Positions 18,274-49,345 of a stretch of DNA of 64,000 nt are shown here, in pieces; the stretch's first letter is position 1; every line of letters starts with the position of its first letter. A program made the translations under genes and the position numbers. Under the pieces are notes generated by a model that was given only the letters and a program-made list of their open reading frames with translations, did no database searches and had not been told where the DNA came from. The DNA comes from Mycolicibacterium boenickei (GTDB lineage Bacteria > Actinomycetota > Actinomycetes > Mycobacteriales > Mycobacteriaceae): the NCBI RefSeq assembly GCF_010731295.1, contig NZ_AP022579.1, forward strand, positions 2,108,001 through 2,172,000. The letters run 5' to 3'.

Positions 18274-19260
18274 TCAGGTGAGTACAGGGGCGGGTAGCTC
18301 GCAGAAGCTGTGGCACACCCGGTCGCGGACGACGATGTCGGTGGTCTCGGGGTCGAACCAGCGGTCGACCACTGCCCAGTGGATCGGATGCATCAGGTAG
18401 GGGCCCATCAGACCGTCGACGTCGGTGAATTCCTGTTCGAAGACGTGCGTCCACTCGCTGGTGCCGATGGCCTGCTCTACCCGGCTCAGTTGCCACGCGG
18501 CGATCGTCGACACGTATCGGGGCATCGACGCGAGTTCGCGTTCGAATGCCGCGACCGTCTCGGCCTCTACCTCGGCAGGGACTCGCAGCAGCAGCGCGCG
18601 GTACACGGTGCCACTGCCGCGGCGGAGTGGACTTCCCTGGTAGGTGACGCCGTTTACCCGGGTGATCGCCGGATCGGTCAGCGCGGCGTCGAAACCGCTG
18701 TTCTCCCAGTCGCTGTCGCAGGCAAACCGCAGATGGACCAGGATGTCGCCGCCGTTGCGCGATCCCGCCAACGTCGGCTGCACCAGTGCGCGCAGCGCAC
18801 CGCTGCGTGCAGCGGCATCGCGCAGGGCCACCAGGACGCGGCTGCGATCGGACTCTGCGACGTCGACCAGACGGGTGACTCCGACCGTGGCGGGTCCCGC
18901 TGATGTGCCGGGCGCGGCAAGTGGGGTAGCAGGGACGGTGACGTCATCGGCCGCGGAGGCAACACTGCGGCTACGTTCGAGGACAAGGTCGGCGATGCTG
19001 TCCCACCAACGCGCCACAGAAGGGTCGGGCCGACCCTGCCAGGTCATCTGCCACCAGGCTTGAGGGCTCGGCAGCGTCCAGGTGATCGTCACCACGTTGG
19101 ATCGGTCCTCGAACCAGATGGGTGGACTGACCAGGACATCGCGCAATGTCATACCGCGTTCGCGCGCCCCAGGGGCATACCCGGCCAGGTAGGTGTCGAT
19201 GAACTTCTGGGCACAGCCCGGCGCGGTGACCACCCGATCGATCACGAAAACCTCGGTCAT
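18274..19260 (-). CDS. Dabb-type (alpha-beta barrel) protein of the catabolic cluster (328 aa)
   Basis: I recognise dimeric alpha-beta-barrel-like segments: an N-terminal part (about 1-100, ending WWQMTWQGRPDPSVARWWDS) and a C-terminal part (about 225-315, ELASMPRYVSTIAAWQLSRV, then MHPIHWAVVDRWFD). The middle is of the same general type. Such domains occur in small-molecule-binding or lyase/cyclase-like proteins, and the exact reaction is unknown. It is divergent from the OYE gene and lies at the left edge of the steroid-like cluster. A second protein of comparable architecture is at 32767-33543. Confidence 0.6.
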   Translation of the reverse strand: MTEVFVIDRVVTAPGCAQKFIDTYLAGYAPGARERGMTLRDVLVSPPIWFEDRSNVVTITWTLPSPQAWWQMTWQGRPDPSVARWWDSIADLVLERSRSVASAADDVTVPATPLAAPGTSAGPATVGVTRLVDVAESDRSRVLVALRDAAARSGALRALVQPTLAGSRNGGDILVHLRFACDSDWENSGFDAALTDPAITRVNGVTYQGSPLRRGSGTVYRALLLRVPAEVEAETVAAFERELASMPRYVSTIAAWQLSRVEQAIGTSEWTHVFEQEFTDVDGLMGPYLMHPIHWAVVDRWFDPETTDIVVRDRVCHSFCELPAPVLT

Positions 19261-19360
19261 GAAACGAGATTACGGCCGGCCATCACGACGGGCCGCGCGC
19301 ATTCCCGACCATCGGGAAACCACCGTTGACGGCGGAGGGGGTCAGCGCGAAGGTGTGCCG

Positions 19361-20566
19361 ATGACCGATCCGTTCAGCCCCACCCAGTTGGGTCCGGTGG
19401 CACTGCGTAACCGTGTGATCAAGGCCGCCACATCAGAAGGCCGCTCGCCCGACGGCCTGGTCACCGACGACCTCATCGACTTCCATCGCAGCTTCGCCGA
19501 GGGCGGGGTCGGGATGACCACTGTCGCCTATTGCTGTGTGTCTCCCCAAGGGGCGAGCGCACCTGGCCAGATCGTGATGGACAGCAAGGCGCTGCCGGGC
19601 CTGCGAAGGCTCACTGACGCCGTGCACGCTGCGGGAGCAGCCATTTCGGCGCAGCTCGGGCATGCCGGGGTGGTGGCGCAGAAAAAGCTGACCGGCGTCA
19701 CCGCGGTGGCACCGAGCCGATTCGTCAACCCGACCTCCTTCGCCTACTGCCGCGAGATCACCCGCGCCGAGATCGCTCGCGTGATCGACCAGTTCGGTGC
19801 GGCAGCCCAGGTGGCGGTCGACGCCGGATTCGACGCCGTCGAACTGCACTTCGGGCACCTCTATCTGCCCAGCTCGTTTTTGAGCCCGCTGATCAATCGA
19901 CGCAAGGACGAGTACGGCGGTGACATCGACAACCGCTCGCGGCTCGTGCGGGAGATCGCGGCACGAGTTCGCGAGGTGGTCGGTGACCAGATCGCGGTGA
20001 TCGCCAAGCTGGACATGGACGACGGTCTTCCCGGCAGCATCTGGATCGACGAGGCGTTGCGGACAGCTCAACTTCTCGATGCCGATGCCACCCTCGATGC
20101 GATCGAGCTGACTCAGGGTTCGTCGGTGTACAAGCCCATGTACCTGTTCCGCGGCGACGTCCCGGTCAAGGAGTTCGCGAAGGTGATGCCGCCGGCCTTG
20201 CGCCCGGCCATCAGACTGGTGGGCAAGCGGACGATGGGTGTCTACCCGTATCGAGACCTCTACATGCTCGAGGCGGCCCGGCAGTTCGTTCCGTTGATGC
20301 GCAACACCAAACTGATTCTGCTGGGCGGCATCAACGATCGCGAGCACCTTGAGATAGGCATGCGGGAAGGGTTCGACTTCTTCGCCATGGGGCGGGCCCT
20401 GCTGCGGGAACCGGCCCGGGTCAACACGATGATCTCCGGACCCGCGTCCCGCGGCCGCTGCAATCACAACAACAAGTGCATGGTGACGGTGTTCGGTCGG
20501 ACCCACTGCGTACTCGACCCCGAGCAGCGGTACGGTGCCGTGCTACCGGCCGAGCAGCTCACCTAG
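19361..20566 (+). CDS. NADH:flavin oxidoreductase / old yellow enzyme family (401 aa)
   Basis: A FMN-binding TIM barrel of the OYE family: N-terminal LGPVALRNRVIKAATSEGRS, the AQLGHAG motif, AGFDAVELHFGHLYLPSSFL and YGGDIDNRSRLVREI. A C-terminal Cys group (RGRCNHNNKCM, THC) suggests an iron-sulfur site, as in 2,4-dienoyl-CoA-reductase-type members, but the FAD/NAD domain is missing. It could reduce an enone or dienone of a polycyclic substrate. The ATG at 19361 is chosen at the family start; the in-frame ORF from 19193 overlaps the divergent Dabb gene. It overlaps the convergent esterase by 24 bases. Confidence 0.85.
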   Translation: MTDPFSPTQLGPVALRNRVIKAATSEGRSPDGLVTDDLIDFHRSFAEGGVGMTTVAYCCVSPQGASAPGQIVMDSKALPGLRRLTDAVHAAGAAISAQLGHAGVVAQKKLTGVTAVAPSRFVNPTSFAYCREITRAEIARVIDQFGAAAQVAVDAGFDAVELHFGHLYLPSSFLSPLINRRKDEYGGDIDNRSRLVREIAARVREVVGDQIAVIAKLDMDDGLPGSIWIDEALRTAQLLDADATLDAIELTQGSSVYKPMYLFRGDVPVKEFAKVMPPALRPAIRLVGKRTMGVYPYRDLYMLEAARQFVPLMRNTKLILLGGINDREHLEIGMREGFDFFAMGRALLREPARVNTMISGPASRGRCNHNNKCMVTVFGRTHCVLDPEQRYGAVLPAEQLT

Positions 20567-21466
20567 CGCGTCGCCGGCCTGTCGCCTCGCCTGGTGCGCG
20601 ATGTCGAGCATCGGCATCGTCATGAATCCGTGGATGCCACCGTCGAACGCGCACCGCACAGTCGGTACCCCGGCCGCCTCGAGGGCATCGGTGTAGGCGA
20701 TGCCCTCATCCCGCAGCGGATCGTGGCCCGCGAGCACGACAGCCGCAGGCGGCAACCCGCCGAGGTCACCGTGTAGCGGTGAGGCATAGGGGTTTTGGCG
20801 ATCCGCGACGGTGGGGACGTACTGATCCCAATACCACTGCAGTGCCGGGCGAGGGTTGTAGAAGCCCTGGCCAAACGCCAGGTACGAGTCGGTGTCGAAA
20901 TCCGCACCGATCACCGGATACAGCAGAAGTTGGGCGGCCAGCTCCGGTCCGCCGCGATCACGGGCCATCATTGTGGTCACGGCCGCGAGATTGCCGCCCG
21001 CGCTGTCGCCGCCCACCGCCACCCGTACCGGGTCGGCGCCCAACTCGGCGGCGTGCTCGACAGCCCAGCAAGTAGCGGCGTAGAGGTCTTCGGCAGCAGT
21101 GGGCCACCGGTGCTCGGGCGCCAATCGGTAGCCCACCGAAACCACTACGGCAGGAATGAGATTGGCGAGGTTGCGGCACAACCCATCGTGACTGTCGAGG
21201 TCGCAGAACACGAACCCGCCACCGTGGGCGTAGACCAGCATGGGAAGCGGGCCGGGTGCATCGGGGCGGTAGATCCGGACGTCGACACGGCCGTTGTCCA
21301 CCGCCACCTGATCGTCGGCCACGGAGCCGACCGGCTCGGGTTGAGGGTTTGCGACGAAGCGGGCGCGGATCGCCGCACGGGCTTGTGCGCCCGTCATCGT
21401 GTGTACCGGAGGGAAGCCCGAATCGAGGGTTTCGATCAGATCCGCGATCTGAGGATCGAGGGTCAT
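20543..21466 (-). CDS. HSL-family alpha/beta hydrolase (lipase/esterase, 307 aa)
   Basis: A hormone-sensitive-lipase type esterase: the oxyanion motif HGGG at 81-84, nucleophile Ser155 in GDSAGG, an Asp in the GHDPLRDEG region and a His in DGGIHGF. It hydrolyses short-chain esters or lactones. In this cluster it could open a lactone made by the Baeyer-Villiger enzyme (inference). It is translated after the IclR gene with a 4-base overlap, so the regulator and esterase form one operon. Confidence 0.87.
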   Translation of the reverse strand: MTLDPQIADLIETLDSGFPPVHTMTGAQARAAIRARFVANPQPEPVGSVADDQVAVDNGRVDVRIYRPDAPGPLPMLVYAHGGGFVFCDLDSHDGLCRNLANLIPAVVVSVGYRLAPEHRWPTAAEDLYAATCWAVEHAAELGADPVRVAVGGDSAGGNLAAVTTMMARDRGGPELAAQLLLYPVIGADFDTDSYLAFGQGFYNPRPALQWYWDQYVPTVADRQNPYASPLHGDLGGLPPAAVVLAGHDPLRDEGIAYTDALEAAGVPTVRCAFDGGIHGFMTMPMLDIAHQARRQAGDALGELLGR

Positions 21467-22314
21467 GCCGGCAGTAGCGCGGTCGAAGCCCGCAACCCGT
21501 TGGCGCCTGAAACAGTGTTCGTGACGCGCAGCGGCCGCAGCGGCTGCAAAGTGGGGACCACCTGTCGAGGGCCGACTTCGGCATTGCGCCAGATACCCAT
21601 CGCGGTCATCCGCACCGGAGCCGCCAGCCGGTGGTCAAAGGTCATGCGGCTCATCGGGCCGCACACCGACACCGCCGCGACGGCAGCCCCGATCGGGCCG
21701 ATCGGCGCTGCGACACACCCGAATCCGGCCAGTGATTCTTCGCGCTCGAACGCCACCCCGTGCGCGCGGACCTTGGCCAGCTCGGCGACCAGCTGCCGCT
21801 CACCGCTGATCGAGAACCGCGTCTTACGTTCGGTGAAGTCGACTTCGCATGATGGGTTGTCGGCCAGGATCGCCTTGCCGACCGCCGTACAGTGCGCGGG
21901 TTGGCGTCCTCCGATCCGGGTCGGGATGGCCGCCACCATCTGGTCACCGATCTTCTCCAGGTACACCACGTCGGAACCGTCGAGGACCGCGAGGTGGACG
22001 ACCAGTCCGGTGGCCCGGTGCAGATCGCGGAGCAACGGAATCGCCGCTTGATGGATGCGGTCTTGATGCAGGGCCAGCGAGCCCAGCTCGACCAGCCGCA
22101 TGCCCAACTCGTAGTCACGGCCGTCGCGGCGCAGCCACCGTAGGTGAACGAGGCGCTCCAGGATGCGGTGGGCCGACGAACGCGGCAGCCCGGTCCGCCG
22201 CACGATCTCTGCCAATGTCAGCCGGCCCGGTCCGTCGAAGACATCGAGAACCAGGGAAACCCGGTCGATGACGGCGCTGGGCGTCTCGCCGGCCTTCTCG
22301 ACAGCCATTGTCAT
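21463..22314 (-). CDS. IclR-family regulator 1 (283 aa)
   Basis: N-terminal winged helix (about 15-75: TLAEIVRRTGLPRSSAHRIL) and a C-terminal effector-binding IclR domain (about 95-255). Its sequence is clearly related to the second IclR of the cluster (34396-35247), which has the same length. A long palindrome (22345-22375) directly upstream is the likely operator. It heads the esterase operon and probably controls the divergent catabolic genes; the effector is unknown. Confidence 0.88.
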   Translation of the reverse strand: MTMAVEKAGETPSAVIDRVSLVLDVFDGPGRLTLAEIVRRTGLPRSSAHRILERLVHLRWLRRDGRDYELGMRLVELGSLALHQDRIHQAAIPLLRDLHRATGLVVHLAVLDGSDVVYLEKIGDQMVAAIPTRIGGRQPAHCTAVGKAILADNPSCEVDFTERKTRFSISGERQLVAELAKVRAHGVAFEREESLAGFGCVAAPIGPIGAAVAAVSVCGPMSRMTFDHRLAAPVRMTAMGIWRNAEVGPRQVVPTLQPLRPLRVTNTVSGANGLRASTALLPA

Positions 22315-22344
22315 GAGGGACCTCCCACTCTGGAGTCATGTGCC

Positions 22345-22375
22345 ACAGGCATATGACTATTAGTCATATGCCTGT
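22345..22375. promoter_or_regulatory. Perfect 14-3-14 palindrome, probable IclR operator
   Basis: The left arm ACAGGCATATGACT is separated by ATT from its exact complement on the right. It lies 31-61 bases upstream of the IclR start, in the gap between two minus-strand units. Its length and symmetry fit a dimer or tetramer binding site. Confidence 0.75.
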
Positions 22376-22438
22376 TTGTAGCATATTGATGTGGGTGCTG
22401 TCACATGAACAGCCGAATGCGATCGGGGTCATGAAGAG

Positions 22439-22463: not shown

Positions 22464-22502
22464 CGATGCATCTGACGATGCCTGCAAGGGCGTGAGCAGC
22501 GG

Positions 22503-23969
22503 CTATGCCTGAGACGCGGCCCGTCCGGCCCGGCGTCCGTAGAAACTCCCGTCGCCCAGGGATACGCCGCTCGCATAGCCCCATGCCGCGAGTCCCGCGG
22601 TGCACCGTCCGGCGGCGAACAAGCCCGGGATGGGCTCGCCGCTGACATGGAGCACCTCGGCATTGAGCGTCGTGTGCAGACCGCCGAGGGTGAAACCACC
22701 GGTGCTCTCGCGGAGATCGATGGCGCCCACGGGAGATTTGATCGGCTTGAGCCACTGCGATTTCTTGTGCAACAGCGGGTCCTCGCCGCGGGCCGCACCC
22801 TCGTTGTAGGCATCGACGGTGGCTTGCAGAGAGTTCGGTGGCAGCCCGATCTCCGCTTCGAGATCGGCGACGGTGTCTGCCACCCACGTCGGCGGCCGCA
22901 TCATCAGCAGCGGTGACAGCGAGGCCATCGCCTCCTCCTGCGCGTCGCCGTCGATGATCAGGTAGGCGGTGTTGTTCTGGTGATACAGCGTCAGCTGGCC
23001 GGCCCGGCCCGGGTACGTGTCCTCGGCGACATAGCGCTGGCCGCGTTCGTTGACCAGGATCCCGCGCACCAGCTGTTGCGGATCGATGAACAACGCCACC
23101 TCGGTCGCGTCCATGTGGGCCAGATCGGCGCCGAGCGCCTGTGCCATCCGGATCGCCTGCCCGTCGTGCTGCTCGATCGAGGCGGCCGGCCGGCCGGCAA
23201 TCCGTGGGGCATAGCGAGCCACCATGGCTTCGTTGTAGGCGAAACTTCCGGTGGCCAGTACCACCCCCCGTCGGGCCCGGATGTCCATCGTGGTGCCATA
23301 GCGCCGGGTCCGGATCCCGACGACTCGGCCGTCCGACTCCACGATCAAGGCCTGCACGCGCACGTCGTACAACGACCGGGCTCCGGCCGCGGTGGCGGTG
23401 TCGACCAGACCCTTCATCAGCATGTATCCCGCGCTGGACTCGCCCTGCTTCTTGTTCTGCATCTGGGGTACGTGGCCGCGCGGAGCCGGAGCAGCGATGG
23501 TGTTGAACGGGTAGGAATTCTCCCCGCCGCTGTACATGAGGCCCTGGTCACCCATGGGCTCCCAGCCGGGCTCTCCGAAGAACTCGGCCTTGAACGGCAC
23601 CCCGCAGCTCACCAGCCAGTCGAAGTGCGCGACGCTTCCCCCGCAATAATCGGCGATGCGCTGCGCATCTGCGCCCGGGCCCATGGCTACGTTGAGGAAC
23701 GCGGCCATGTTGTCGACCGAATCCTCGAAGCCGCACGCCTTTTGGAGAGCGGTGCCGCCACCGAGGTAGATGAACCCACCTGCCATCGATGCGGCGCCGC
23801 CCCACGACCCGGTGCGTTCGAGTACCAGTACTTCGGCTCCGGTGTGTGTCGCCTCCACCGCGGCGGCTGCGCCGGCAACGCCGTAGCCGGCGATCACCAC
23901 GTCGGCTTCATCGGCCCAGTCAGTGATCGCGCCGACAGGGATCGGCTGGATGTCGTCGGTGAACGTCAC
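22503..23969 (-). CDS. FAD-binding dehydrogenase, 3-ketosteroid-delta1-dehydrogenase-like (488 aa)
   Basis: The FAD_binding_2 (fumarate reductase/KstD) architecture: dinucleotide motif GYGVAG at residues 28-33, WGGAASMAGGFIYLGGGTAL, and a C-terminal FAD segment (GLFAAGRCTAGLAAWGYASG). KstD introduces the C1-C2 double bond of 3-ketosteroids, which makes ring A aromatise after 9-hydroxylation. Here the substrate may differ. GTG at 23969 overlaps the HsaC-like stop by 4 bases (GTGA); the longer ORF is rejected. It is the last gene of the HsaA-HsaC-KstD-like operon. Confidence 0.78.
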   Translation of the reverse strand: MTFTDDIQPIPVGAITDWADEADVVIAGYGVAGAAAAVEATHTGAEVLVLERTGSWGGAASMAGGFIYLGGGTALQKACGFEDSVDNMAAFLNVAMGPGADAQRIADYCGGSVAHFDWLVSCGVPFKAEFFGEPGWEPMGDQGLMYSGGENSYPFNTIAAPAPRGHVPQMQNKKQGESSAGYMLMKGLVDTATAAGARSLYDVRVQALIVESDGRVVGIRTRRYGTTMDIRARRGVVLATGSFAYNEAMVARYAPRIAGRPAASIEQHDGQAIRMAQALGADLAHMDATEVALFIDPQQLVRGILVNERGQRYVAEDTYPGRAGQLTLYHQNNTAYLIIDGDAQEEAMASLSPLLMMRPPTWVADTVADLEAEIGLPPNSLQATVDAYNEGAARGEDPLLHKKSQWLKPIKSPVGAIDLRESTGGFTLGGLHTTLNAEVLHVSGEPIPGLFAAGRCTAGLAAWGYASGVSLGDGSFYGRRAGRAASQA

Positions 23970-24874
23970 GGGCGCATCGCCGCCGGAAGGTCTGACACCC
24001 ACTGATGACCCCAGTAGCTGTCGGCGGTGATTTCCTCAGCGGTGTAATAGGTTTCGTCGACCCGCATGCCCTCGGTGCCGAACTCGATATCCCAGTCTCC
24101 TGGAGCGCGCACATAGAACGACACCATCTTGTCGTTGGTGTGGCGGCCCAGTGTGGATGACAGCTGGAACCCCTCGGCGTTGACGCGGTCCAGGGCCTGG
24201 CCGACGGCATCGAGGGTGTCCACCTCGACCATGAGGTGGATCAGCCCCGGGTCGCGCAGATTCTGTGCCGGACAGATCGCGAGGCTGTGGTGACGCTGGT
24301 TGACTCCCATGAATCGCACCCGGACGGGCCCGAACTCCGGTGGCACCGGGACGCGGAAAGCGCCGCGCGACTTGAAACCCAGTACCTCGGTGTAGAACTG
24401 GAAGAGCCCGTTCACGTCGAGCGCAGGTAGTACGACGTGGCCCAGGCCCTGCTCGCCGGTGACGAACTTCGCACCGTGCGGTGTGACGACGGGGGAGTGG
24501 TCGAGGACCGCGCCGTGGAACACCTCCAGGGCGGTGCCTGCCGGATCATCGAACGCGATGACCTCCTCGACCCGTCGCGCGTCGGCTTCGTCGAGCGACA
24601 GCTGCTTGAACGGCACCTCCGCGGCATCGAGTGCGGCTTTGACCTGTTCAAGGTCGGCGTGGTCGCGTACCTCCCAACCGACGGTCATGATCTTGTCGAC
24701 GTCGCCGGGCACGACGATGATGCGGGCTGCGCGCTCGTCCATCCGCAGATACAGTGCCGACTCGTCGGGCCCGCGTCCTTTCGCAAAGCCCAGCACATCG
24801 AAGGCGAACTGCCGCCAGCGTTCGATGTCGGAGGCGGCAACGGTGACGTAGCCCAGGCTCTTGATCAGTCCCAT
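23966..24874 (-). CDS. HsaC-like extradiol (catechol) dioxygenase, VOC superfamily (302 aa)
   Basis: A two-domain type I extradiol dioxygenase close to HsaC (3,4-DHSA dioxygenase) and BphC. Expected Fe(II) ligands are His146 (GLGHVVLP), His213 (LIHLMVEV) and Glu264 (DIEFG). The second-shell His195-His196 (QRHHSLAI) and Tyr254 (SFYVRAPG) are also present. It cleaves an aromatic diol next to a hydroxyl. Length is standard. It lies 12 bases after the HsaA-like gene and overlaps the KstD-like gene, so these act together on a ring that becomes a catechol. Confidence 0.88.
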   Translation of the reverse strand: MGLIKSLGYVTVAASDIERWRQFAFDVLGFAKGRGPDESALYLRMDERAARIIVVPGDVDKIMTVGWEVRDHADLEQVKAALDAAEVPFKQLSLDEADARRVEEVIAFDDPAGTALEVFHGAVLDHSPVVTPHGAKFVTGEQGLGHVVLPALDVNGLFQFYTEVLGFKSRGAFRVPVPPEFGPVRVRFMGVNQRHHSLAICPAQNLRDPGLIHLMVEVDTLDAVGQALDRVNAEGFQLSSTLGRHTNDKMVSFYVRAPGDWDIEFGTEGMRVDETYYTAEEITADSYWGHQWVSDLPAAMRP

Positions 24875-24886
24875 AGGAAGCGCCTC

Positions 24887-26068
24887 TCAGATCATCGCCC
24901 GCAACGGGCCCTGCGGGTCCACGCCCAACGAGCTCAGGGCGGAAGCGTGATAGACCGTGCCCGGAACGTGGATCGCATGTGCCTGACCGACGTGCACGTC
25001 ACGCCAATACCGTTGTAGCGGTTTGTCCATCCGGGCGGCGTTGCCGCCGCAGCGGGCGAAGATCTCGTCGACGGCCGACACCGCGCGCCACACCGCTCGT
25101 ACCTGGGTCCGTCGCCCTGCTGCCCGGTCTTCGAAGGACACTTCCTTGCCCGAGTCGACGATGTCGTAGATGCGGTCGGCGTTGGCCAAGAGTTCCTGCC
25201 GAGCGGCGTTGATGTCCGCGGCGGCCTCGCCGATCGCGTACATCACGTAGGGGTCGTCCTTGATCGCCACACCGCTCGAGTTCACCCGCTCACGCTGGTA
25301 GTCGAGTGCGGCTGCCAGCGCGCCCTCTGCGATGCCGATGGTGGCCGCGCTGATGCCCAGCGGGAACATCGTCGACCACGGCATCAGGTACAGGGTGTCG
25401 GTCATCCCGGCTTCCCGCTGGGCTGTACCGTCCATGACCTTCGTCGCGTCCATGGTCCGGTAGGACGGTACGAAGGCATCCTTGACGATGACGTCCTTGG
25501 ACCCGGTTCCGCGCAGCCCCACCACGTTCCACGAGTCCTCGACGATCTCGTAGTCCTTGCGCGGCAGGATCATGTGCAGCATCTGCGGCGGCATCAGTGG
25601 TTTACCGTCGGCGTCGCCGAGCATCGCACCCAAGAAGATCCAGTCGCAGTGATCGGTGCCGGAGCTGAACTGCCAACGGCCGTTGAAGATGTAGCCGCCG
25701 TCGACCGGCTTGGCAACACCCTGCGGAGCGTAGGGAGAAGCGACCCAGGTATCCACATCGTCGGCCCAGATCTCGGCCGCGACCCTGGGATCGGCGTAGG
25801 CGAGCTGGTAGGGGTGCACGCCCACGACGCCGTTGATCCAGCCGGCCGAGGGGTCCAGCGCGGCAGTGGCCATGACGGTCTCGGCGAACTCGCGCGGATG
25901 GACTTCCAAGCCGCCGTGCGCCTTCGGCTGTAGCAGGCGGATGTTGCCCGCCGACTTCATCATCTTGACTGTCTCGTCTGTGAGCTTGCCGATCTTCTCG
26001 GCTTCGGCACCCTGGTTGCGCAGCTGTTCGGCGATGTCGCGCACCCGGTCGATTACCCGCTCAGTCAT
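24887..26068 (-). CDS. HsaA-like flavin-dependent monooxygenase, oxygenase component (393 aa)
   Basis: Acyl-CoA-dehydrogenase-fold monooxygenase of the HsaA/HpaH group: ALDPSAGWINGVVGVHPYQL, WQFSSGTDHCDWIFLGA, DSWNVVGLRGTGSKDVIVKD, RYWRDVHVGQAHA. HsaA hydroxylates the phenolic ring of the secosteroid 3-HSA to a catechol using FMNH2 from HsaB. No HsaB-like reductase is in this window. First gene of the three-gene operon with the HsaC-like and KstD-like genes. It lies 100 bases downstream of the KshB-like gene, so it may have its own promoter or be co-transcribed. Confidence 0.85.
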   Translation of the reverse strand: MTERVIDRVRDIAEQLRNQGAEAEKIGKLTDETVKMMKSAGNIRLLQPKAHGGLEVHPREFAETVMATAALDPSAGWINGVVGVHPYQLAYADPRVAAEIWADDVDTWVASPYAPQGVAKPVDGGYIFNGRWQFSSGTDHCDWIFLGAMLGDADGKPLMPPQMLHMILPRKDYEIVEDSWNVVGLRGTGSKDVIVKDAFVPSYRTMDATKVMDGTAQREAGMTDTLYLMPWSTMFPLGISAATIGIAEGALAAALDYQRERVNSSGVAIKDDPYVMYAIGEAAADINAARQELLANADRIYDIVDSGKEVSFEDRAAGRRTQVRAVWRAVSAVDEIFARCGGNAARMDKPLQRYWRDVHVGQAHAIHVPGTVYHASALSSLGVDPQGPLRAMI

Positions 26069-27233: not shown

Positions 27234-27365
27234 GGGCCGAGATTCTGGCGCTAGGGGCCCATGGCGCCAACCCGCCAGTTCCGGTGGTCGGGACGTCGGG
27301 TCTGTCCGTCCGGTGACCGGGAACTTCGGAGGTCAAGGTCGGGACGGCCGCCTACCGTACGCCGT

Positions 27366-30612: not shown

Positions 30613-30620
30613 GAGAAGCA

Positions 30621-33543: not shown

Positions 33544-33545
33544 AC

Positions 33546-40983: not shown

Positions 40984-42065
40984 TGCTGAAATACCGTGGA
41001 TCGCACCTCATCCGGAGTGGGCTCATCGGCATCGTGCTGATCGCGATGATCATCGCGGTCGGACTCCAGCCGCAGGCGCTCTGGTCGTGGGCCACGTCGG
41101 TCAAATACAACGCACTGTTCGCCGAGGCCGGCGGGCTCACCACCGGTAACGACGTCAAGATCTCCGGAGTCACCAAAGGCCTGGTCACCGATGTCAGCCT
41201 GAGTCACGGCAAGGCGCTGGTGACCTTCACCCTCGACAGCAAGGTGCGGCTCGGCTCCGACACCACCGCGCACATCCGCACCGGGACGATGCTCGGTGCC
41301 CGGATGCTGACCCTGGAACCGGCAGGCGCCGGCACGATGCGTGCCTCGGACACGATTCCGATCACCAGGACGGCATCGCCGTATTCGTTGACCAACGCCG
41401 TCGGCGACTTCACCAACAACACCGCGGGCACGGACACGGCCGCGCTCACGCAGTCCCTGGATACGTTGTCGGACACCATCGACCGGATGGCACCCCAGCT
41501 GGGGCCGACGTTCGAAGGCCTGTCCCGGTTGTCGGAGACGCTCAACAGCCGCAACGAGTCGCTGTCCAACCTGCTCAAGAGTGCGGCCGATGTGACCGGC
41601 ATCCTGTCGAAGCGCAGTGAACAGGTCAACACGCTGCTGCTGGACGCGAACGCGTTGACCGGGGTGCTCGACCAGCGCCGGTATGCGATCGTCAACCTGC
41701 TGGCCAACACTTCGGCACTGTCGCAGCAACTGTCCGGACTCGTCCACGACAACGAGGAAGAGCTCGCCCCCACCCTGAAGCAGCTCAACGCGGTGACGGC
41801 GATGCTGGAGAAGAACCGCGACAACATCGCCGGAGCCCTGGCAGGTCTCGCCAAATATCAGGTCACCCAGGGTGAATCGGTGAACAACGGCTTCTACTAC
41901 AACGCCTTTGTCGCGAACCTCAATCCCGCGCAGACCATCCAGCCGTTCCTGGACTACGCGTTCGGGTTCCGCCGCGGCACCAATGCCGGTCAGCCGCCGG
42001 ACAATGCCGGCCCGCGCGCCGAATTCCCGTGGCCCCACAACGGCATTCCTGGAGGAAGTCGATGA
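40983..42065 (+). CDS. mceC: MceC substrate-binding protein (360 aa)
   Basis: N-terminal TM (about 12-30), MlaD domain (about 38-115, NDVKISGVTKGLVTDVSLSH) and a helical C-terminal tunnel region, with a Gly/Pro-rich end. ATG overlaps the mceB stop by one base (TGATG), and its own stop overlaps mceD. The ORF starting at 40890 runs through the end of mceB. Confidence 0.92.
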   Translation: MLKYRGSHLIRSGLIGIVLIAMIIAVGLQPQALWSWATSVKYNALFAEAGGLTTGNDVKISGVTKGLVTDVSLSHGKALVTFTLDSKVRLGSDTTAHIRTGTMLGARMLTLEPAGAGTMRASDTIPITRTASPYSLTNAVGDFTNNTAGTDTAALTQSLDTLSDTIDRMAPQLGPTFEGLSRLSETLNSRNESLSNLLKSAADVTGILSKRSEQVNTLLLDANALTGVLDQRRYAIVNLLANTSALSQQLSGLVHDNEEELAPTLKQLNAVTAMLEKNRDNIAGALAGLAKYQVTQGESVNNGFYYNAFVANLNPAQTIQPFLDYAFGFRRGTNAGQPPDNAGPRAEFPWPHNGIPGGSR

Positions 42066-43522
42066 TCGCCCGTAACCGCAAGCGGATCAGCCGCACCGTG
42101 CTGGTGCTGCTGGCCGTGCTGGCCCTGGCCGGCACGGTGATGATCGTGCGGCAGACCGCCTTCAAGCCCACCACCATCACCGCGTACTTCACCTCTGCCA
42201 CGGCGATCTACCCGGGTGACGAGGTTCGTGTCGCCGGGGTCAAGGTCGGCTCCATCAAGAGCATCGAGCCGGTCGGCGGGCAGGCACGGATCACCCTCGC
42301 CGTCGATCGCGGCGTCAAGATCCCGGCCGACGCCAAGGCAATTCTGATGGCGCAGAACCTCGTTGCGGCCCGGTACGTCCAGTTGGCACCGGCCTATGAA
42401 GACGAAGGCCCGACGATGGCCGACGGTGCGCAGATCGGGGTCGAGCGCACCGCGGTGCCGGTCGAGTGGGACCAGGTCAAGGACCAGCTGATGCGGTTGG
42501 CGTCCGATCTGGGGCCGATCAACGGAGCCTCGGCCACCTCGCTGAGCCGCTTCGTCGACAGTGCCGCCGCAGCCATGAACGGCAACGGCGAGAAGCTGCA
42601 CGAAGCGATCAGCCAGCTGTCCGGTGTCGCAAAGATCCTGGGCCAGGGGAGCGGCGATGTCGTCGGCATCATCAAGAACCTGCAGGTCTTCGTGACGGCC
42701 CTGCGGGACAGCAACGCCCAGATCGTGGAGTTCCAGGGTCATCTCGCCAACGTCACCAGTGTCGTCGACGAGAGCCGCTCCGATCTGGACGGCGCACTGA
42801 CCAACCTGGCGGACGCCGTCGGCAATGTTCGGCGATTCGTGGCGGGCAGCCGCGACCAGACCGCCGAGCAACTGGAGCGGCTGAACAACGTGACCCAGAA
42901 CCTGGTGGACAACAAGATCAAGCTGGAGAACGTCCTACACGTCGCTCCCAATGCGATCGCCAACGGCTACAACATCTACAACCCCGACAGTGGCAGTGCG
43001 GTCGGTGCGTTCGCACTGGCGAACTTCTCCGACCCGCTGTCGGTGGTGTGCTCGGCGATCGGGGCGGTCAAGAACGCGACCGCGGCAGAATCGTCCAAGC
43101 TGTGCGCCCAGTATCTCGGGCCGGCCCTGTCGTTGCTCAACTTCAACCACATGCCGATGCCGTTCAACGCCTATCTGAAGAAGTCGCCGAGCCCGGAAAA
43201 CCTGGTGTACACCGATCCCAATCTGGCACCCGGCGGAGCAGGCGGACGTCCGCAGCCCTACCAGGATCTGCCGCCGGCCGTGTCGGCCTACACCGGTGCC
43301 AATGACGTGGCGCCGCCGGCCGGCTGGGGTGCGCCCCCGGCTGGAGGGCCCGGTGCGTATGCACCCAACGGATTGCCCGCGAACACCTCACCCGCGGCGT
43401 ATCCCGGATCGCCGGTCGTCTCGGATCCTCCGGTGCAAGCACCGAAGACGTTGCGCGACATGCTGCTACCCGCCGAAGCCGCACCGATCCCGGCACCGCC
43501 GGCCCCAGGAGGCACCCCATGA
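42062..43522 (+). CDS. mceD: MceD substrate-binding protein with Pro/Ala-rich tail (486 aa)
   Basis: TM at about 11-30, MlaD domain (about 38-112, GDEVRVAGVKVGSIKSIEPV), helical tunnel domain to about 380 and then about 100 residues rich in Pro, Ala and Gly. The tail probably extends toward the outer envelope. Overlaps mceC and mceE by 4 bases each. Confidence 0.92.
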   Translation: MIARNRKRISRTVLVLLAVLALAGTVMIVRQTAFKPTTITAYFTSATAIYPGDEVRVAGVKVGSIKSIEPVGGQARITLAVDRGVKIPADAKAILMAQNLVAARYVQLAPAYEDEGPTMADGAQIGVERTAVPVEWDQVKDQLMRLASDLGPINGASATSLSRFVDSAAAAMNGNGEKLHEAISQLSGVAKILGQGSGDVVGIIKNLQVFVTALRDSNAQIVEFQGHLANVTSVVDESRSDLDGALTNLADAVGNVRRFVAGSRDQTAEQLERLNNVTQNLVDNKIKLENVLHVAPNAIANGYNIYNPDSGSAVGAFALANFSDPLSVVCSAIGAVKNATAAESSKLCAQYLGPALSLLNFNHMPMPFNAYLKKSPSPENLVYTDPNLAPGGAGGRPQPYQDLPPAVSAYTGANDVAPPAGWGAPPAGGPGAYAPNGLPANTSPAAYPGSPVVSDPPVQAPKTLRDMLLPAEAAPIPAPPAPGGTP

Positions 43523-44835
43523 TCACTCGGCGGTCGCTGACGCGCCTGACCGCGGTCGCCGCCTGTGCGGCGGCGACCCTAACCGGCTGTGCGTTCCACG
43601 GGCTGAATTCGCTGCCCCTGCCCGGCACGGTGGGGCGCGGGGCCGACGCCACGACCTACCACGTCGAACTCGCCAATATCGGGACACTGGAAGCCAATTC
43701 GCCGGTGATGATCAGTGACGTCATCGTCGGCAGCGTCTCCCGGATGGTGGTGAAGGGTTGGCACGCGGACGTGGAGGTGTCGGTCAAACCCGACGTCGTC
43801 GTTCCGGCCAACGCGGTCGCCACCGTCGGGCAGACCAGCTTGCTGGGCTCCATGCACATCGCGCTCGATCCGCCGCTGGGGCAATCGCCGTCTGGACGGC
43901 TGTCCCCGGGCGCGACCCTCGAGCTGAACCAGACTTCGACATATCCGTCGACCGAACAGACCTTGTCGTCGCTGTCCGTGCTCGTCAACGGTGGCGGCCT
44001 GGGCAAGATCGGTGACCTGGTAACCGAATTCAACGCGGCGCTCAACGGCCGTGAGGACCAGATCCGCGACCTGCTCACCCGGCTCGATGACATCGTCGGG
44101 ATGTTCGCAAACCAGCGAGACGACATCAACGCCTCCATCAATGCGCTGAACCGACTGGCCGGCACGCTGTCCGGACAGCAGGAGGTGATCACCACGGCGC
44201 TGCAACGGATCCCACCGGCGCTCGATGTGCTGGTGAAGGAACGCCCTCGCATCACCACCGCGTTGGAGAAGTTCGGCAAGTTCAGCGAAACCGCGACCAA
44301 CCTCGTCAATGCGACACGCGACGACCTGCTGACCAACCTGCGCAACCTCGAACCGACCGTCAAGGCACTGGCTGACGTTGGCCCGAATTTGGGCACTGTG
44401 CTGGCCTACGCGCCGACATACCCCTACCCGCAGAACTTCATCGACCGGGCCATCCGCGGGGACTACCTCAACCAGTTCATCACCTTCGACTTCACCATTC
44501 CGAGGCTGAAGCGGGGACTGTTCCTGGGCACCCGATGGGGCCAGGAGGGACTGCCCCTCACGCCGGCGCCGGGTGACCCCTGGTATGCCAACTACACGAA
44601 GGACCCGCTTGGCATGCCGCTGACTCCGCCGCCGCCTGATTCGGTGGCCACGATGCCGCCGCTGATCGACCCGGCTCCGGCCGATGGTGAACCGGCACCG
44701 GCGGCTCCGGTTGCGCAGTCCGCTGAGACGGCACCGGCGGACCCGGCGGCGGTGCCCGCCCCGGAACCGCAGCCCGGTTCTCCTGTGGCAGTAGTGCCTT
44801 CTGACCCTGCAGCACCGAGCGAAGGCGGCAACTGA
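43519..44835 (+). CDS. mceE: MceE lipoprotein (438 aa)
   Basis: Signal peptide with a lipobox LTGC (Cys24), as expected for MceE, which is the lipid-anchored member of the six. An MlaD domain (about 48-125) and helical tunnel domain follow, with a Pro/Ala-rich C-terminal tail (after about 370). Overlaps mceD, and its stop overlaps mceF by one base. Confidence 0.92.
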   Translation: MITRRSLTRLTAVAACAAATLTGCAFHGLNSLPLPGTVGRGADATTYHVELANIGTLEANSPVMISDVIVGSVSRMVVKGWHADVEVSVKPDVVVPANAVATVGQTSLLGSMHIALDPPLGQSPSGRLSPGATLELNQTSTYPSTEQTLSSLSVLVNGGGLGKIGDLVTEFNAALNGREDQIRDLLTRLDDIVGMFANQRDDINASINALNRLAGTLSGQQEVITTALQRIPPALDVLVKERPRITTALEKFGKFSETATNLVNATRDDLLTNLRNLEPTVKALADVGPNLGTVLAYAPTYPYPQNFIDRAIRGDYLNQFITFDFTIPRLKRGLFLGTRWGQEGLPLTPAPGDPWYANYTKDPLGMPLTPPPPDSVATMPPLIDPAPADGEPAPAAPVAQSAETAPADPAAVPAPEPQPGSPVAVVPSDPAAPSEGGN

Positions 44836-46418
44836 TGCTCACCCGTTTCGTCCGAATCCAGTTGGCCATCTTCGCGGTGGCATCGGTGATCGGCATGGCC
44901 CTGATGGGCATCGTGTATCTGCAGGCTCCCACCCTGTTGGGCATCGGGCGGATGACGGTGACCCTGCAACTGTCGGGAACCGGTGGACTGTACCAGTTCT
45001 CGAACGTGACCTACCGCGGTGTGCAGATGGGGAAGGTCACCGAGGTGCGGCCCACCCGTGACGGCGCGGAAGCCACGCTGTCGCTGAACACGTCGCCCAA
45101 GATCCCGGCGGACCTGCACGCCGCCGTGCTGAGCGTGTCGGCGGTGGGTGAGCAGTACGTCGACCTGCAGCCCCGCAACGACTCGGCACCGTATCTGCAC
45201 GACGGGTCGGTCATCCCGGCCTCCAGCACATCGATCCCCCAAGCCGTGGGGCCGATGCTCGATCAGGTCAGTTCGCTCATGGGCAGCATCCCCAAGGACA
45301 AGATCAGCCCGCTGCTCGACGAAACCTTCAAGGCCTTCAACGGCACCGGAAACGACATGGGAGCATTACTGGATTCCTCGTCCCGACTTATCGCCGAGGC
45401 GAACGCGGCTTCCGATCAGTCCCGTGCGCTCATCGACGACGGGGCGCCGCTCCTCGATGGGCAGGCTGAGTCGGTCGAGGCGATCCGCACGTGGGCACGA
45501 AGCATGGCCGGGGTGACCAAGCAGGTCGCCGACGACGACCAGCACGTGCGCACGCTCCTCAAGGAGGGGTCGGGTGCTGCCGACGAAGCCTCTCGCCTGT
45601 TCAACCAGGTCAAGCCGACCCTGCCGCTGCTGCTGGCCAACCTCACCAGCCTCGGTCAGGTCGGGGTGACCTACCGCCCCTCGCTGGAACAGCTCCTGGT
45701 ACTTCTGCCACCGTCCATCGCATCAACGCAGTCATACGGTGCGCCGAAGAACAATCCGATCGGTATGTCCTTGGGCGACTTCACACTTACGATGGGCGAC
45801 CCACCGGCATGCACAGTCGGGTTCCTGCCGCCGTCATCGTGGCGGTCCCCGGAGGACACCACCGACATCGACACTCCCGATGGGCTGTACTGCAAGCTGC
45901 CGCAGGATTCGGCGATCGGTGTCCGCGGCGCGCGCAACTACCCGTGCATGGGGAAGCCCGGCAAGCGTGCTCCCACCGTCGAAATCTGTAACAGCGACCA
46001 GCCTTACGAGCCGTTGGCGATGCGCCAGCACGCCCTCGGCCCCTACCCGATCGATCCCAACCTGCTCGCGCAGGGGATCGCACCGGATTCCCGCGTCGAT
46101 CATGACAAGTTCATCCACGGTCCCGTCGAGGGCACCCCGCGTCCGCCGGCAGCCACACCTCCTGCGCCACCAGCTGAGGCGCCGCCGGCCGAGGCGCCTG
46201 CCGCACCGCCGGCGGGTGAGGTGCCACCGGTCCCGGATGCGCCGGTGATGGCGCCGAGCGCGTTCAGCCCCAACGGATCTGACGGTCCGTCGGTGGCGGT
46301 CGCCACGTACGATCCGCGGACCGGCCGCTACGCCACCCCGGACGGCAAGGTGTACCGCCAGACCGACCTGGTGCCGCGCACGGGTGACCAGACCTGGCAG
46401 GACCTGTTCACCACCTGA
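44835..46418 (+). CDS. mceF: MceF substrate-binding protein with Pro/Ala-rich tail (527 aa)
   Basis: TM (about 8-30), MlaD domain (about 38-118), helical tunnel domain to about 300, then a region with Cys (ACTVGFLPP, LYCKLP, YPCMGKPGKRAP) and an Ala/Pro tail (about 430-480) before a final folded piece (YDPRTGRYATPDGKVYRQ). Last Mce protein of the operon; a strong hairpin follows one base after the stop. Confidence 0.92.
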   Translation: MLTRFVRIQLAIFAVASVIGMALMGIVYLQAPTLLGIGRMTVTLQLSGTGGLYQFSNVTYRGVQMGKVTEVRPTRDGAEATLSLNTSPKIPADLHAAVLSVSAVGEQYVDLQPRNDSAPYLHDGSVIPASSTSIPQAVGPMLDQVSSLMGSIPKDKISPLLDETFKAFNGTGNDMGALLDSSSRLIAEANAASDQSRALIDDGAPLLDGQAESVEAIRTWARSMAGVTKQVADDDQHVRTLLKEGSGAADEASRLFNQVKPTLPLLLANLTSLGQVGVTYRPSLEQLLVLLPPSIASTQSYGAPKNNPIGMSLGDFTLTMGDPPACTVGFLPPSSWRSPEDTTDIDTPDGLYCKLPQDSAIGVRGARNYPCMGKPGKRAPTVEICNSDQPYEPLAMRQHALGPYPIDPNLLAQGIAPDSRVDHDKFIHGPVEGTPRPPAATPPAPPAEAPPAEAPAAPPAGEVPPVPDAPVMAPSAFSPNGSDGPSVAVATYDPRTGRYATPDGKVYRQTDLVPRTGDQTWQDLFTT

Positions 46419-47003: not shown

Positions 47004-47137
47004 GACCAAACTCCTCTGTACACGGGCCAGCGGCGGTCGCCGCGGCTGTGCTAACTGTGCTACTTCTGTCGTTTTTTTGACGAACAATGTCCCACCTAGT
47101 GGGCCATGGGCCGGCAACCGGATTCAGCCGTGCCACA

Positions 47138-47527
47138 GTGTCGTACGTGCGGATACCGGTGGCAGTAACGGCGGGGTTGCTCGTCGCGGCGGCGATGGCC
47201 GCCCCAGCCCCTGCGGGCGCAGAACCTCTCGGGTGTAGCGAACCGTCGTGCGTACCCGGGATCACCGGTGGCGTCGTGCTCGGCGCGCCGTGTGGGGATA
47301 CGGCGTACTACGTCTTCGGAACCACCTCGTGGGGCCGGCTGGTCTTCTGCGGATCACCGCGCCGGTACGAGCCGCGCTACTTCCGCTCACCGCCGTTGAA
47401 GGGTATTCGTGAGGAGAATTCGCCGTGCCAAGGTTTCGAGAACACTGTCGCGCAGGCGCCCGACGGACTCTTCCTGAGCTGCGTGGCCAGTGACGGATCG
47501 GCCAGGTGGCTCCGTGGCGACCTCTGA
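47138..47527 (+). CDS. Small secreted Cys-rich protein (129 aa)
   Basis: Signal peptide (VRIPVAVTAGLLVAAAMAAP, cleavage near GAEP) followed by a short mature domain with six Cys, among them LGCSEPSCVPG, GAPCGDT and LSCVASDG. GTG at 47138 or 47147 are both possible; neither has a convincing ribosome binding site. No family recognised. Divergent from the preceding secreted protein and overlapping the next one. Confidence 0.65.
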   Translation: MSYVRIPVAVTAGLLVAAAMAAPAPAGAEPLGCSEPSCVPGITGGVVLGAPCGDTAYYVFGTTSWGRLVFCGSPRRYEPRYFRSPPLKGIREENSPCQGFENTVAQAPDGLFLSCVASDGSARWLRGDL

Positions 47528-47945
47528 GCGTGCGGTCGCGGTGACCGCATTCGTCGCCGCCCTCGGCGCGGGCCTTGCGTTGGCGACACCGTCACACGCC
47601 GACGAGGCCCCCATGATGCATCGCGTGACCTATACGGTCACCGCCGAGCAGCCGACGACCGTCGGCATCTACTTCCGCGAGGTCGACCCGCCGACGTGGG
47701 CGGATTACAGCCACAATCCTTACGAATTCAGCCCCAAGGACGATCTGACGCTGGAACCGGGCAAGCCCTGGGTCCGCGAGACCACGCTCGCCGACCCGAT
47801 GAAGTGGGCCATGGTCACCGTCACCACGGCCGGCCTGGCCCCGCAAACTCCGGCGACCCTGACGTGCGAAATGGCCATCGACGGAATCGTCGTCGACCGC
47901 GCTGCCGGGGCCAAAGGGGCGTTGTGTTCGCTGCGGAACTGGTGA
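47514..47945 (+). CDS. Secreted MmpS-like-fold protein (143 aa)
   Basis: A signal peptide (about residues 6-30, ending PSHADEA) and a mature beta-sandwich domain resembling the MmpS pattern: VTYTVTAEQPTTVGIYFREV, WAMVTVTTAG, TCEMAIDGIVVD and a final Cys segment (ALCSLRNW). True MmpS proteins have an N-terminal TM and accompany an mmpL; here no mmpL is adjacent. GTG at 47514 is preferred (CAGGTGG upstream); GTG at 47490 is the alternative. It overlaps the preceding gene by 14 bases. Confidence 0.65.
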   Translation: MATSERAVAVTAFVAALGAGLALATPSHADEAPMMHRVTYTVTAEQPTTVGIYFREVDPPTWADYSHNPYEFSPKDDLTLEPGKPWVRETTLADPMKWAMVTVTTAGLAPQTPATLTCEMAIDGIVVDRAAGAKGALCSLRNW

Positions 47946-48104
47946 GGGAGCCGTTCACCAGGCATGGATTTGTCCGCTGGGTGGGACATCGGGCCGGGCA
48001 CGCTCAGCTGCCGCACTACCGTGTGGCAGCAGTCACATCGGCCATGAGGCGCCCGCGGTAATCGGCGTCATTCGCGACCGGCCGATACCAACCGGAGGTG
48101 CACT

Positions 48105-48740
48105 ATGCGGTTACTCAGCCGCTCCGACCAGGAAACTGACCAGGAAACTGAGGCAGCCGTGCTCGACGATGCCGTCGACGTCACGCCGTCGGCCGAATCC
48201 GAAACCGACGATCCCGGGGACGCCGGCGAAGCGCCACGTGAAAAACGCAGCCGGCGTCCGCGGCTCGCGACGTTGCTCGCCGGCGCCGCCATCCTGGTCA
48301 GCGGCGCGCTGATCGCGGCAGGCGGATACGTGATCTGGTACCACCAGCAAGCCGACCGCGAACAGCAGCGTCGCGCGGAATTCGCGGCTGCTGCCTCGCA
48401 AGCCGCCGTCACCTTGATGTCGATCGACAGCGCCACGGCCCAGGACAACGTCCGGCAGATCCTCGACAACTCGACCGGACAGTTCAAGGCCGACATCGAG
48501 TCTTCCTCCGAAGACCTGGTGAAAGCGGCGCAGGACTCGAAGGCGACGACGAAGGCCACGGTCGGAGCCTCTGCGGTGCAGTCGATGGACGGGGACTCCG
48601 CAGTCGTCCTCGTCAGTACGTCGACCACGGTGAGCAACTCGGCCGGGGCGAATCAGCAGCCACGGAACTGGCGCCTGAGCGTCACCATGGTCAAAGACGG
48701 GGAACAGATCAAGATGTCGAAGGTGGAGTTCATCCCGTGA
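48105..48740 (+). CDS. Mce-associated membrane protein 1 (211 aa)
   Basis: The Mam layout: a cytoplasmic acidic/charged N terminus (1-53), one TM (about 54-78, ATLLAGAAILVSGALIAAGG) and a periplasmic domain of NTF2-like type ending MSKVEFIP. Mce-associated proteins stabilise or modulate Mce importers. Separated from mceF by the three secreted-protein genes. Its stop overlaps the next gene (GTGA). Confidence 0.85.
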   Translation: MRLLSRSDQETDQETEAAVLDDAVDVTPSAESETDDPGDAGEAPREKRSRRPRLATLLAGAAILVSGALIAAGGYVIWYHQQADREQQRRAEFAAAASQAAVTLMSIDSATAQDNVRQILDNSTGQFKADIESSSEDLVKAAQDSKATTKATVGASAVQSMDGDSAVVLVSTSTTVSNSAGANQQPRNWRLSVTMVKDGEQIKMSKVEFIP

Positions 48741-49345
48741 GCACAGCCACAGCAGAAGACACCTCAGAAGCCACCCCCGAAGTCGATGTCGTCGAAGGCA
48801 TCTCGGCCGGTGACGTGGTCGCCGAGGAGAGTGCCCAGCCCCAGGAGCGGTGGATCCATCGGCTGGCCCGGCAGTGGCGACCGATCGCGGTCGTCTGCGT
48901 ACTGCTGGCCTCGGCGAGCTCCGCGGCGGCGCTCTACTTCGGCATGTACCGCGTCGATCACGGCATCGCCGGATCGTCCACGACGGTGATCGACGCGGCG
49001 TCCGAAGGTTCGGTGGCGCTGTTGTCCTATGCGCCAGACAGTTTGGACAAGGACTTCGCCGACGCACGATCTCGGTTGACCGGTGACTTCCTGACGTACT
49101 ACAGCGAGTTCGCCGACAAGTTCGTGGCGCCGGCCGCCAAACAGAAGGACATCCGCGCCACCGCCACGGTCGTTCGCGCGGCGCCGATCACGGTGCAGGC
49201 CGACACCGCGGAGGTCCTGGTCTACCTGAACCAGGCGACGACGAGCCGCGACAACCCCGAACCGGCGCAGGCCGCCAGCGCCGTGAAAGTGGGACTCACG
49301 AAACTCGACGGAAAGTGGCTGATCTCGTCGTTCAACCCGATCTAG
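48737..49345 (+). CDS. Mce-associated membrane protein 2 (202 aa)
   Basis: A second Mam protein: acidic N terminus, a TM at about 50-72 (PIAVVCVLLASASSAAALYF) and a periplasmic domain with the typical start VIDAASEGSVALLSYAPDSL and the end LDGKWLISSFNPI. GTG start overlaps the first Mam gene by 4 bases, so the two are co-translated. Confidence 0.87.
   Translation: MSTATAEDTSEATPEVDVVEGISAGDVVAEESAQPQERWIHRLARQWRPIAVVCVLLASASSAAALYFGMYRVDHGIAGSSTTVIDAASEGSVALLSYAPDSLDKDFADARSRLTGDFLTYYSEFADKFVAPAAKQKDIRATATVVRAAPITVQADTAEVLVYLNQATTSRDNPEPAQAASAVKVGLTKLDGKWLISSFNPI

Follow-up and report, generated by a model that had tools for sequence, protein, structure and literature searches.

The window analysed here comprises 64,000 nucleotides of the genome of Mycolicibacterium boenickei (positions 2,108,001–2,172,000 of contig NZ_AP022579.1; genome size 6.59 Mb, with 57 matches to the MCE domain). 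Its stretch from 18.3 to 49.3 kb, in which a block of steroid-type catabolic genes is followed by an mce operon, had been read in an earlier note on this DNA as a dedicated unit of uptake and degradation for a different polycyclic substrate. A new or self-contained unit is not supported by our analysis. We conclude that this stretch is very probably the right half of a second steroid cluster of the C-19+ type, without KstR boxes and with an Mce importer of its own, an assessment that concerns identity and general function. The cluster start that the note had placed at 18,274 merely adjoins the edge, at 18,018, of an inserted element, with more of the cluster lying left of the window; the region is half of a C-19+-type cluster, split by the element. 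An insertion of this kind can make half of a known cluster pass for a free-standing new one. The C-19+ cluster of M. smegmatis, attributed to Fernandez-Cabezon et al., reportedly spans MSMEG_2851–2901, and its MSMEG_2868 is presumably a PadR-like regulator.

The left half was located with M. litorale F4 as guide and extends from genome position 2,080,389 to about 2,103,980. Paralogues of KstD (NF009479, 1068.5 against a cut-off of 793) and KshA (KshA_C PF19298, 300.6 bits, together with a Rieske domain) lie at 2,081,534–2,085,286, with a PadR regulator gene (37.1 bits, cut-off 27) beside them. The remainder of this half includes a second LipP1-like esterase (296.8, below the cut-off of 350), a TetR regulator, a pair of acyl-CoA dehydrogenases, aldehyde and alcohol dehydrogenases, a flavin monooxygenase and a short-chain dehydrogenase/reductase (SDR). 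After scans with NCBIfam and Pfam, some genes were still without a name, both in this half and in relatives.

M. litorale F4, M. houstonense and M. neoaurum ATCC 25795 each carry an uninterrupted version of the cluster. Two of the three share the order KstD, small gene, PadR, KstD, KshA…HsaC2…HsaD2, M. houstonense being without the outer KstD. In M. neoaurum ATCC 25795 (genome G148), a single contig of 36.7 kb carries KstD, a small gene, a PadR-type gene, KstD, KshA and the middle genes, followed by the part from the Dabb-domain gene to Kst4D, then HsaC2, HsaA2, KshB2, the monooxygenase, an SDR, the 3alpha-hydroxysteroid dehydrogenase (3alpha-HSD) and HsaD2; further KstD-like matches lie elsewhere in that genome. 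KstD2 and KstD3 of this strain, which may be the two KstDs of the contig, belong to a second cluster homologous to C-19+ (PMC5962712). The C-19+ identity of our region is proposed because its gene content and order match the M. neoaurum cluster. In M. smegmatis, KstD 2867 and 2869, KshA 2870 and KshB 2893 are all without a KstR operator (PMC5270728) and mce genes fall within MSMEG 2854–2865 (PMC4881515), a published numbering that follows the M. litorale order of mce, KstD, PadR, KstD, KshA, …, KshB2. This correspondence is strong, though indirect. Common to C-19+ of M. smegmatis, the second cluster of M. neoaurum and the cluster described here are the KshB, HsaA, HsaC and HsaD paralogues and the lack of KstR boxes; the KstD–PadR–KstD–KshA order and a linked mce operon are further points of likeness to C-19+.

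The lack of KstR boxes from the block, noted earlier, held in an exact search: TNNAACNNGTTNNA occurred in the window only at 59537 and 60834, and no exact box was present between genome positions 2,050,936 and 2,167,537. A search for KstR2 boxes returned a single site with a mismatch, at 20471, where 0.51 would be expected by chance, and was set aside. Regulation had instead been ascribed to IclR and TetR factors. Genes of both families do lie in the block, but they are not alone, as the PadR gene of the left half joins them.

Several observations weigh against the C-19+ assignment. The second KstD (the PRK12837-type of M. litorale, MSMEG_2867 type) had no match of at least 45% identity in the region of our genome, nor was one found in the M. 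houstonense stretch. For M. smegmatis, the comparison with C-19+ draws on gene numbers from the literature rather than on sequences. No mce gene was present on the M. neoaurum ATCC 25795 cluster contig, and no HsaB-type flavin reductase was recognized among the scanned block proteins. Unlike C-19+, the cluster here has no second KstD, carries its mce operon at the HsaD2 end and is split by a 22-kb element.

The element measures 22,037 bp from core to core and sits within a DUF222 gene, which it interrupts. Its left junction is at window position -4,019 (genome 2,103,981) and its right junction, with the core AA, at 18018..18019. The site is uninterrupted in M. houstonense, M. porcinum and genome G020, where the equivalents of -4,019 and 18,018 join and the flanks are continuous, the M. 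porcinum contig ending 312 bp past the junction. A large serine recombinase gene, with Resolvase, Recombinase and zinc-ribbon domains, begins 27 bp inside the left end; the cargo comprises AAA ATPase, S8 peptidase, RepSA, FtsK, MmpL and TetR genes and dszABC (14161–17833). Copies at other loci in M. porcinum (G141; 22,044 aligned bp, 99.995% identity) and in G117 (22,039 bp, 99.986%) each lie within a DUF222 gene, at the same point. These near-identical copies elsewhere mark the element, from comparison of genomes, as a recent and mobile one that has no connection with the steroid genes. No tRNA gene was found as its integration site in the window or in two further stretches. A plasmid origin of dsz was also considered and set aside, a plasmid collection having given one 69-base match only. 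DszB proved rare, being detected in five of the 148 genomes of our genus comparison, in which our own genome is counted (E 1e-30), one of the five (G045) having partial and partly broken matches, and in two of 397 genomes of the order, again including our own (E 1e-60). The M. cosmeticum genomic island with a dsz operon (PMC6456199) likewise places dszABC on horizontally acquired DNA; the element here has defined ends, a recombinase and a target gene, and the island is set beside it by description.

The proximity of dszABC, only 440 bp from the block, raises the question of whether the HsaA-, HsaC- and HsaD-like genes form a 2-hydroxybiphenyl pathway that extends dibenzothiophene desulfurization by dszABC, and the HsaC-type protein HsaC2 does exceed the TIGR03213 (BphC) cut-off (380.6 against 366.45). 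We consider this most improbable and have dropped it: dszABC belongs to a separate element, copies of which occupy other loci in M. porcinum and G117 with 99.99% identity, and no dsz gene lay beside HsaC2 at any of 80 named loci, that of M. porcinum included. These loci are the best 80 of 564 matched, with no named M. smegmatis locus among them, each followed for up to 10 kb from HsaC2, and a gene was scored as present when it had at least 50% identity over at least half of its length.

The mce operon begins with two genes for Mce permeases on the forward strand, yrbEA (37128–37898) and yrbEB (37895–38755), whose products scored 130.6 and 112.5 with TIGR00056, below its cut-off of 212.2. They are followed on the same strand by mceA, B, C, D, E and F (38768..46418), all six above the TIGR00996 cut-off and with the PF02470 domain. 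Two YrbE genes and then six Mce genes in order agree with the complete yrbEAB-mceA-F operon with Mam proteins of the earlier note. Behind mceF come two forward-strand genes for small conserved proteins without a family match (47087..47945; 81–88% and 75–87% identity in G020 and G128) and then two forward-strand genes (48105..49345), called Mam-like (Mce-associated) because they match the genes behind mce4F at 25–27%; G124, G119 and M. houstonense likewise have Mam-like genes next to the operon. The plan yrbEAB-mceA-F-mam is that of the Mce4 sterol importer, which is part of the KstR regulon. Unlike Mce4, the linked operon has no KstR box, and its MceA shares only 35% identity with our genome's mce4A. 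The closest MceA of our own genome in the tree belongs to an operon at 3,331,673–3,338,022 (56% identity). To our knowledge, many Mce operons have no substrate assigned.

Independent occurrence of operon and catabolic block in most genomes, the pattern that the earlier note held to speak against a joint unit, was looked for among the 148 genomes. HsaC2 (at least 64% identity) was found in 87 and MceA of the linked type (at least 61%, a threshold set only after the identities were known) in 60, with both in 46. The two lay on one contig in 36 genomes, and the nearest pair was within 50 kb in 35 of these and within 20 kb in 18; the sole exception to pairing within 50 kb was G134, with a separation of 1.9 Mb. 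Another 10 genomes, with MceA and HsaC2 on separate contigs, are uninformative. As a control, we used MceA-like proteins of up to 60% identity, which, among the matches listed, numbered 86: 60 were in genomes with HsaC2 and 17 on the same contig, but none was within 50 kb, the nearest being 64 kb away. In a tree of MceA, 15 linked and two unlinked sequences formed one group with a support of 94/96, slightly under the program's star, and its next relative was our own operon at 3.33 Mb. The 15 linked rows represent 14 genomes, with M. houstonense added to the 148; the outer paralogues had long branches, and the tree did not include our own operon at 0.14 Mb or G035.

It is also possible that the mce operon is a mere neighbour that imports something unrelated. 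The two parts are separable, 14 of the 60 genomes with MceA being without HsaC2 and 41 of the 87 with HsaC2 being without such an MceA, and in G124 and G119 the operon is kept next to genes of the HsaA2-like and IclR kinds, with HsaC2 missing. The mixed expression published for the cluster (see below) could be taken in the same sense. Against a mere neighbour stand the 35 of 36 genomes whose pair is no more than 50 kb apart, the operon lying at one end or the other of a cluster that rearranges, and the control, 0 of 17 among the matches listed. The place of the operon is not fixed, which counts against the C-19+ assignment: it was at the HsaD2 end here and in G020, G065 and G102, whereas M. 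litorale and G073 have it at the KstD end. That the operon stays attached at either cluster end argues for a working tie. We consider the neighbour explanation unlikely; judged from gene neighbourhoods across the genus, the mce operon belongs with the catabolic block. In G124 and G119, the operon (MceA 88% and 84% identical) has as neighbours an IclR gene and a gene resembling HsaA2 (92% and 95%), but neither HsaC2 nor a second HsaC or Kst4D, an arrangement in which HsaA2 may be used apart from ring degradation.

The enzymes listed for the catabolic block (18,274–36,931) were all found in place, with family or PDB matches far beyond chance, although some identities required revision. The gene on the reverse strand at 22503..24002, previously termed KstD, encodes a predicted delta4-(5alpha)-ketosteroid dehydrogenase (Kst4D): its closest match was the Kst4D structure 4at0 (723 bits), compared with about 100 bits or less for other 3-ketosteroid dehydrogenases in PDB, and it was present at 74 of the 80 loci. 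The catalytic residues of RHA1 Kst4D, which we take to be Tyr319, Tyr466 and Ser468, align with identical residues if a 20-residue tag offset is assumed in the 4at0 chain. Also on the reverse strand are genes for an HsaC-type extradiol dioxygenase (HsaC2, 23966..24874), an HsaA-type flavin-dependent hydroxylase (HsaA2, 24887..26068; 79/80 loci) and an HsaD-type C–C hydrolase (HsaD2, 36008..36931; 55/80 loci). HsaC2 scored 293 bits with 2zi8, filed as BphC and presumably M. tuberculosis HsaC, against 182 bits with the 2,3-dihydroxybiphenyl dioxygenase 1han, and was 98% identical to its M. porcinum counterpart. HsaA2 scored 560.6 bits with 2or0, which is annotated merely as ‘hydroxylase’, 308.2 with 3afe and 290.6 with the 3-HSA hydroxylase 2rfq. 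HsaD2 gave 228 bits with HsaD and 186 with BphD. The homology to HsaA, HsaC and HsaD thus stands on PDB likeness, whereas the NCBIfam cut-offs were missed (368.8/450, 366.2/450 and, with NF045632, 288.3/400). Scores below equivalog cut-offs are as expected of paralogues, and by these scores the three are paralogues rather than the cholesterol-pathway enzymes proper. Similarly, a reductase is indeed present where KshB had been named (26169..27233, reverse strand; 41/80 loci), but the top model for this FAD/[2Fe-2S] protein was PaaE, below cut-off (238.1/420.8); it is called KshB2 because of its place and the cluster described, not because of a family match. Both halves together hold candidate genes for delta1-KstD, KshAB, HsaA, HsaC and HsaD of the 9,10-seco pathway, that is, for all but HsaB.

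A further set of enzymes could serve entry into this pathway. The forward-strand gene at 27261..28979 (74/80 loci) encodes a type I Baeyer–Villiger monooxygenase (BVMO) of the steroid-monooxygenase class. It is closest to the Rhodococcus rhodochrous steroid monooxygenase (PDB 4aos; 66.3% identity, 354/534), compared with 52.5% (276/526) for the phenylacetone monooxygenase 1w4x, and keeps the type I BVMO fingerprint, which we take to be FxGxxxHxxxWP, as FGGAVYHTAHWP. Unlike the R. rhodochrous enzyme, the block monooxygenase, whose activity is predicted, adjoins genes for an esterase, a 3alpha-HSD and ring degradation. The esterase, of the LipP1 family and hormone-sensitive-lipase type (20543..21466, reverse strand; 69/80 loci), scored 391.7 with NF058653 (cut-off 350) and has HGGG and GDSAG motifs. 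An SDR of the 3alpha-HSD/carbonyl reductase type (33540..34388, forward strand) matched PDB 2dkn (180.7 bits) and 1fjh (169.6 bits) and has a YGASK motif. Three more SDR genes follow the monooxygenase on the forward strand. Two of them, at 28979..29782 and 29779..30612, are of the mycofactocin type, as noted earlier, both exceeding the TIGR03971 cut-off of 300 (302.5 and 369.6); the third, at 30609..31415 (scanned as 30501–31415), matched SDR models below cut-off.

On our best reading, the unit would take up 3-ketosteroids and degrade their A and B rings by the 9,10-seco route, the reactions, substrate and regulation all being deduced from the genes. The steroid would be imported by the Mce complex, energized presumably by an MceG ATPase encoded elsewhere. 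Ring hydroxyls would be oxidized by the 3alpha-HSD and SDRs, and 5alpha-3-ketosteroids would receive a delta4 bond from Kst4D. A 20-keto side chain would be converted by the steroid-monooxygenase-type enzyme to the 17-O-acetate, which the LipP1 esterase would take off, an SDR then yielding the 17-ketone. Ring B would be opened by KstD (delta1) and KshA with the reductase, and ring A cleaved by HsaA2, HsaC2 and HsaD2; the C and D rings would pass through the ordinary KstR2 pathway.

C21 pregnanes are our first guess at the substrate, since the ring enzymes are joined by genes for removing a 20-keto side chain and for a 5alpha/3alpha entry. We tentatively suggest that C-19+ may at heart serve to import and degrade C21 20-ketosteroids, namely progesterone together with its 5alpha-reduced 3alpha-hydroxy derivatives, with the linked Mce as dedicated importer and the steroid monooxygenase and LipP1 esterase as the missing side-chain removal that feeds the C19 route. 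The acyl-CoA dehydrogenase pair of the left half, which such a route would not need, speaks against it. Expression data published for C-19+ are mixed, which counts against the C-19+ assignment of the cluster. In M. smegmatis, RNA-seq showed mce 2854–2865 to be up on cholesterol and KstD 2867 and 2869 to be about twofold above glycerol (35.54/17.88 and 18.40/10.92), a result with which quantitative reverse transcription PCR disagreed for 2869 (PMC4881515). Microarrays showed no induction by cholesterol of 2870, 2869, 2867 and 2893 (1.00, -1.17, -1.14 and 1.21; PMC5270728).

A somewhat unlikely alternative, suggested by the name C-19+, is that C19 androgens (androstenedione, testosterone) are the sole substrates of the unit, with the BVMO and esterase doing other work, such as lactonization of the C17 ketone. 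M. smegmatis apparently needs C-19+ to use C19 steroids efficiently (PMC5962712). An androgen-only role fits less well with an enzyme 66% identical to a progesterone monooxygenase, in the block and at 74 of the 80 loci, or with the esterase at 69. Moreover, C-19+ is described as not activated by phytosterol or C19 steroids, its natural activation reportedly not being established (PMC10672877).

The earlier note had given a 3alpha-hydroxysteroid, a bile-acid-like compound or a triterpenoid as examples of the substrate. Widened to bile acids, triterpenoids, diterpenoids or other steroids whose side chain is broken down through a CoA ester, this idea has in its favour that 3alpha-HSD and Kst4D suit 3alpha-hydroxy saturated steroids, that the acyl-CoA dehydrogenase pair and aldehyde dehydrogenase of the left half are a sign of CoA-linked breakdown, and that HsaC2 also passes the BphC model. 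No steroid-CoA ligase was recognized, however, among the scanned block proteins, and the delta4 enzyme is of the 5alpha type. We regard such substrates as distinctly improbable, and C21 20-ketosteroids are the better guess because of the steroid monooxygenase and esterase.

If true, the pregnane proposal could explain the growth of derepressed M. smegmatis on progesterone, a use reported as a personal communication (PMC12239570). The block monooxygenase would be a stronger candidate for this activity, if M. smegmatis carries one, and the linked importer, steroid monooxygenase, esterase and 5alpha-steroid dehydrogenase would point to one substrate class for both C-19+ and Mce. Within the excerpts that it returned, our literature search found no paper connecting C-19+ with a steroid monooxygenase of type I or with the cluster's mce operon. 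The pdc progesterone cluster of Caenibius tardaugens (PMC12239570), compared here by description, likewise has a type I BVMO and a luciferase-like monooxygenase (LLM)-class enzyme with regulators near; that paper puts the identity between the pdc BVMO and the R. rhodochrous enzyme at 30.4%. The LLM enzyme here is of the F420 Rv2161c type, and the gene set otherwise differs from pdc. Elsewhere in our genome, positions 5,027,417–5,029,012 encode another enzyme of the steroid-monooxygenase class, which has 67% identity to that of the cluster.

The remaining genes of the block encode further putative enzymes and regulators. On the reverse strand lie genes for a Dabb-domain protein (18274..19260; PF07876, 56.7 bits; 71/80 loci) and two IclR-family regulators, one at 21463..22314 (IclR-type models, below cut-offs; 76/80 loci) and one at 34396..35241 (scanned as the longest open reading frame, to 35541). 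The forward strand carries genes for an old-yellow-enzyme family oxidoreductase (19193..20566; PF00724; 48/80 loci), the LLM-class F420-type oxidoreductase (31418..32266; TIGR03619, 227.7 against 166.9), a SnoaL-like protein (32263..32757; PF13577, 94.6 bits), a conserved protein without a family match (32767..33543; orthologues at 11/80 loci) and a TetR-family regulator (35374..36036; MftR model, 64.5 bits, cut-off 224.9).

Towards its right end, beginning at about 53.7 kb, the window resembles the sterol core, with FadD17, an acyl-CoA dehydrogenase, an SDR and the beginning of an mce operon. From the two KstR boxes and the gene order of M. tuberculosis, we take this operon to be mce4. The C-19+-type cluster thus adjoins mce4 yet carries no KstR box.

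Additional modules were seen in the clusters of other genomes. In G020, a module inside the cluster (L129:4520–9832) encodes a threonine-dehydrogenase-like alcohol dehydrogenase, an SDR, an alkyl-sulfatase-type hydrolase, a sulfotransferase and an IclR regulator, which may hint at sulfated steroids; similar-sized genes occupy the same place in G128 and M. houstonense, domains having been scanned in G020 only and the SDR assigned by BLAST match. A second Kst4D–HsaC2–monooxygenase module, predicted to be a local duplication, lies about 9–12 kb from the first in G004, G024, G053, G093 and G136, as followed gene by gene in G004 only.

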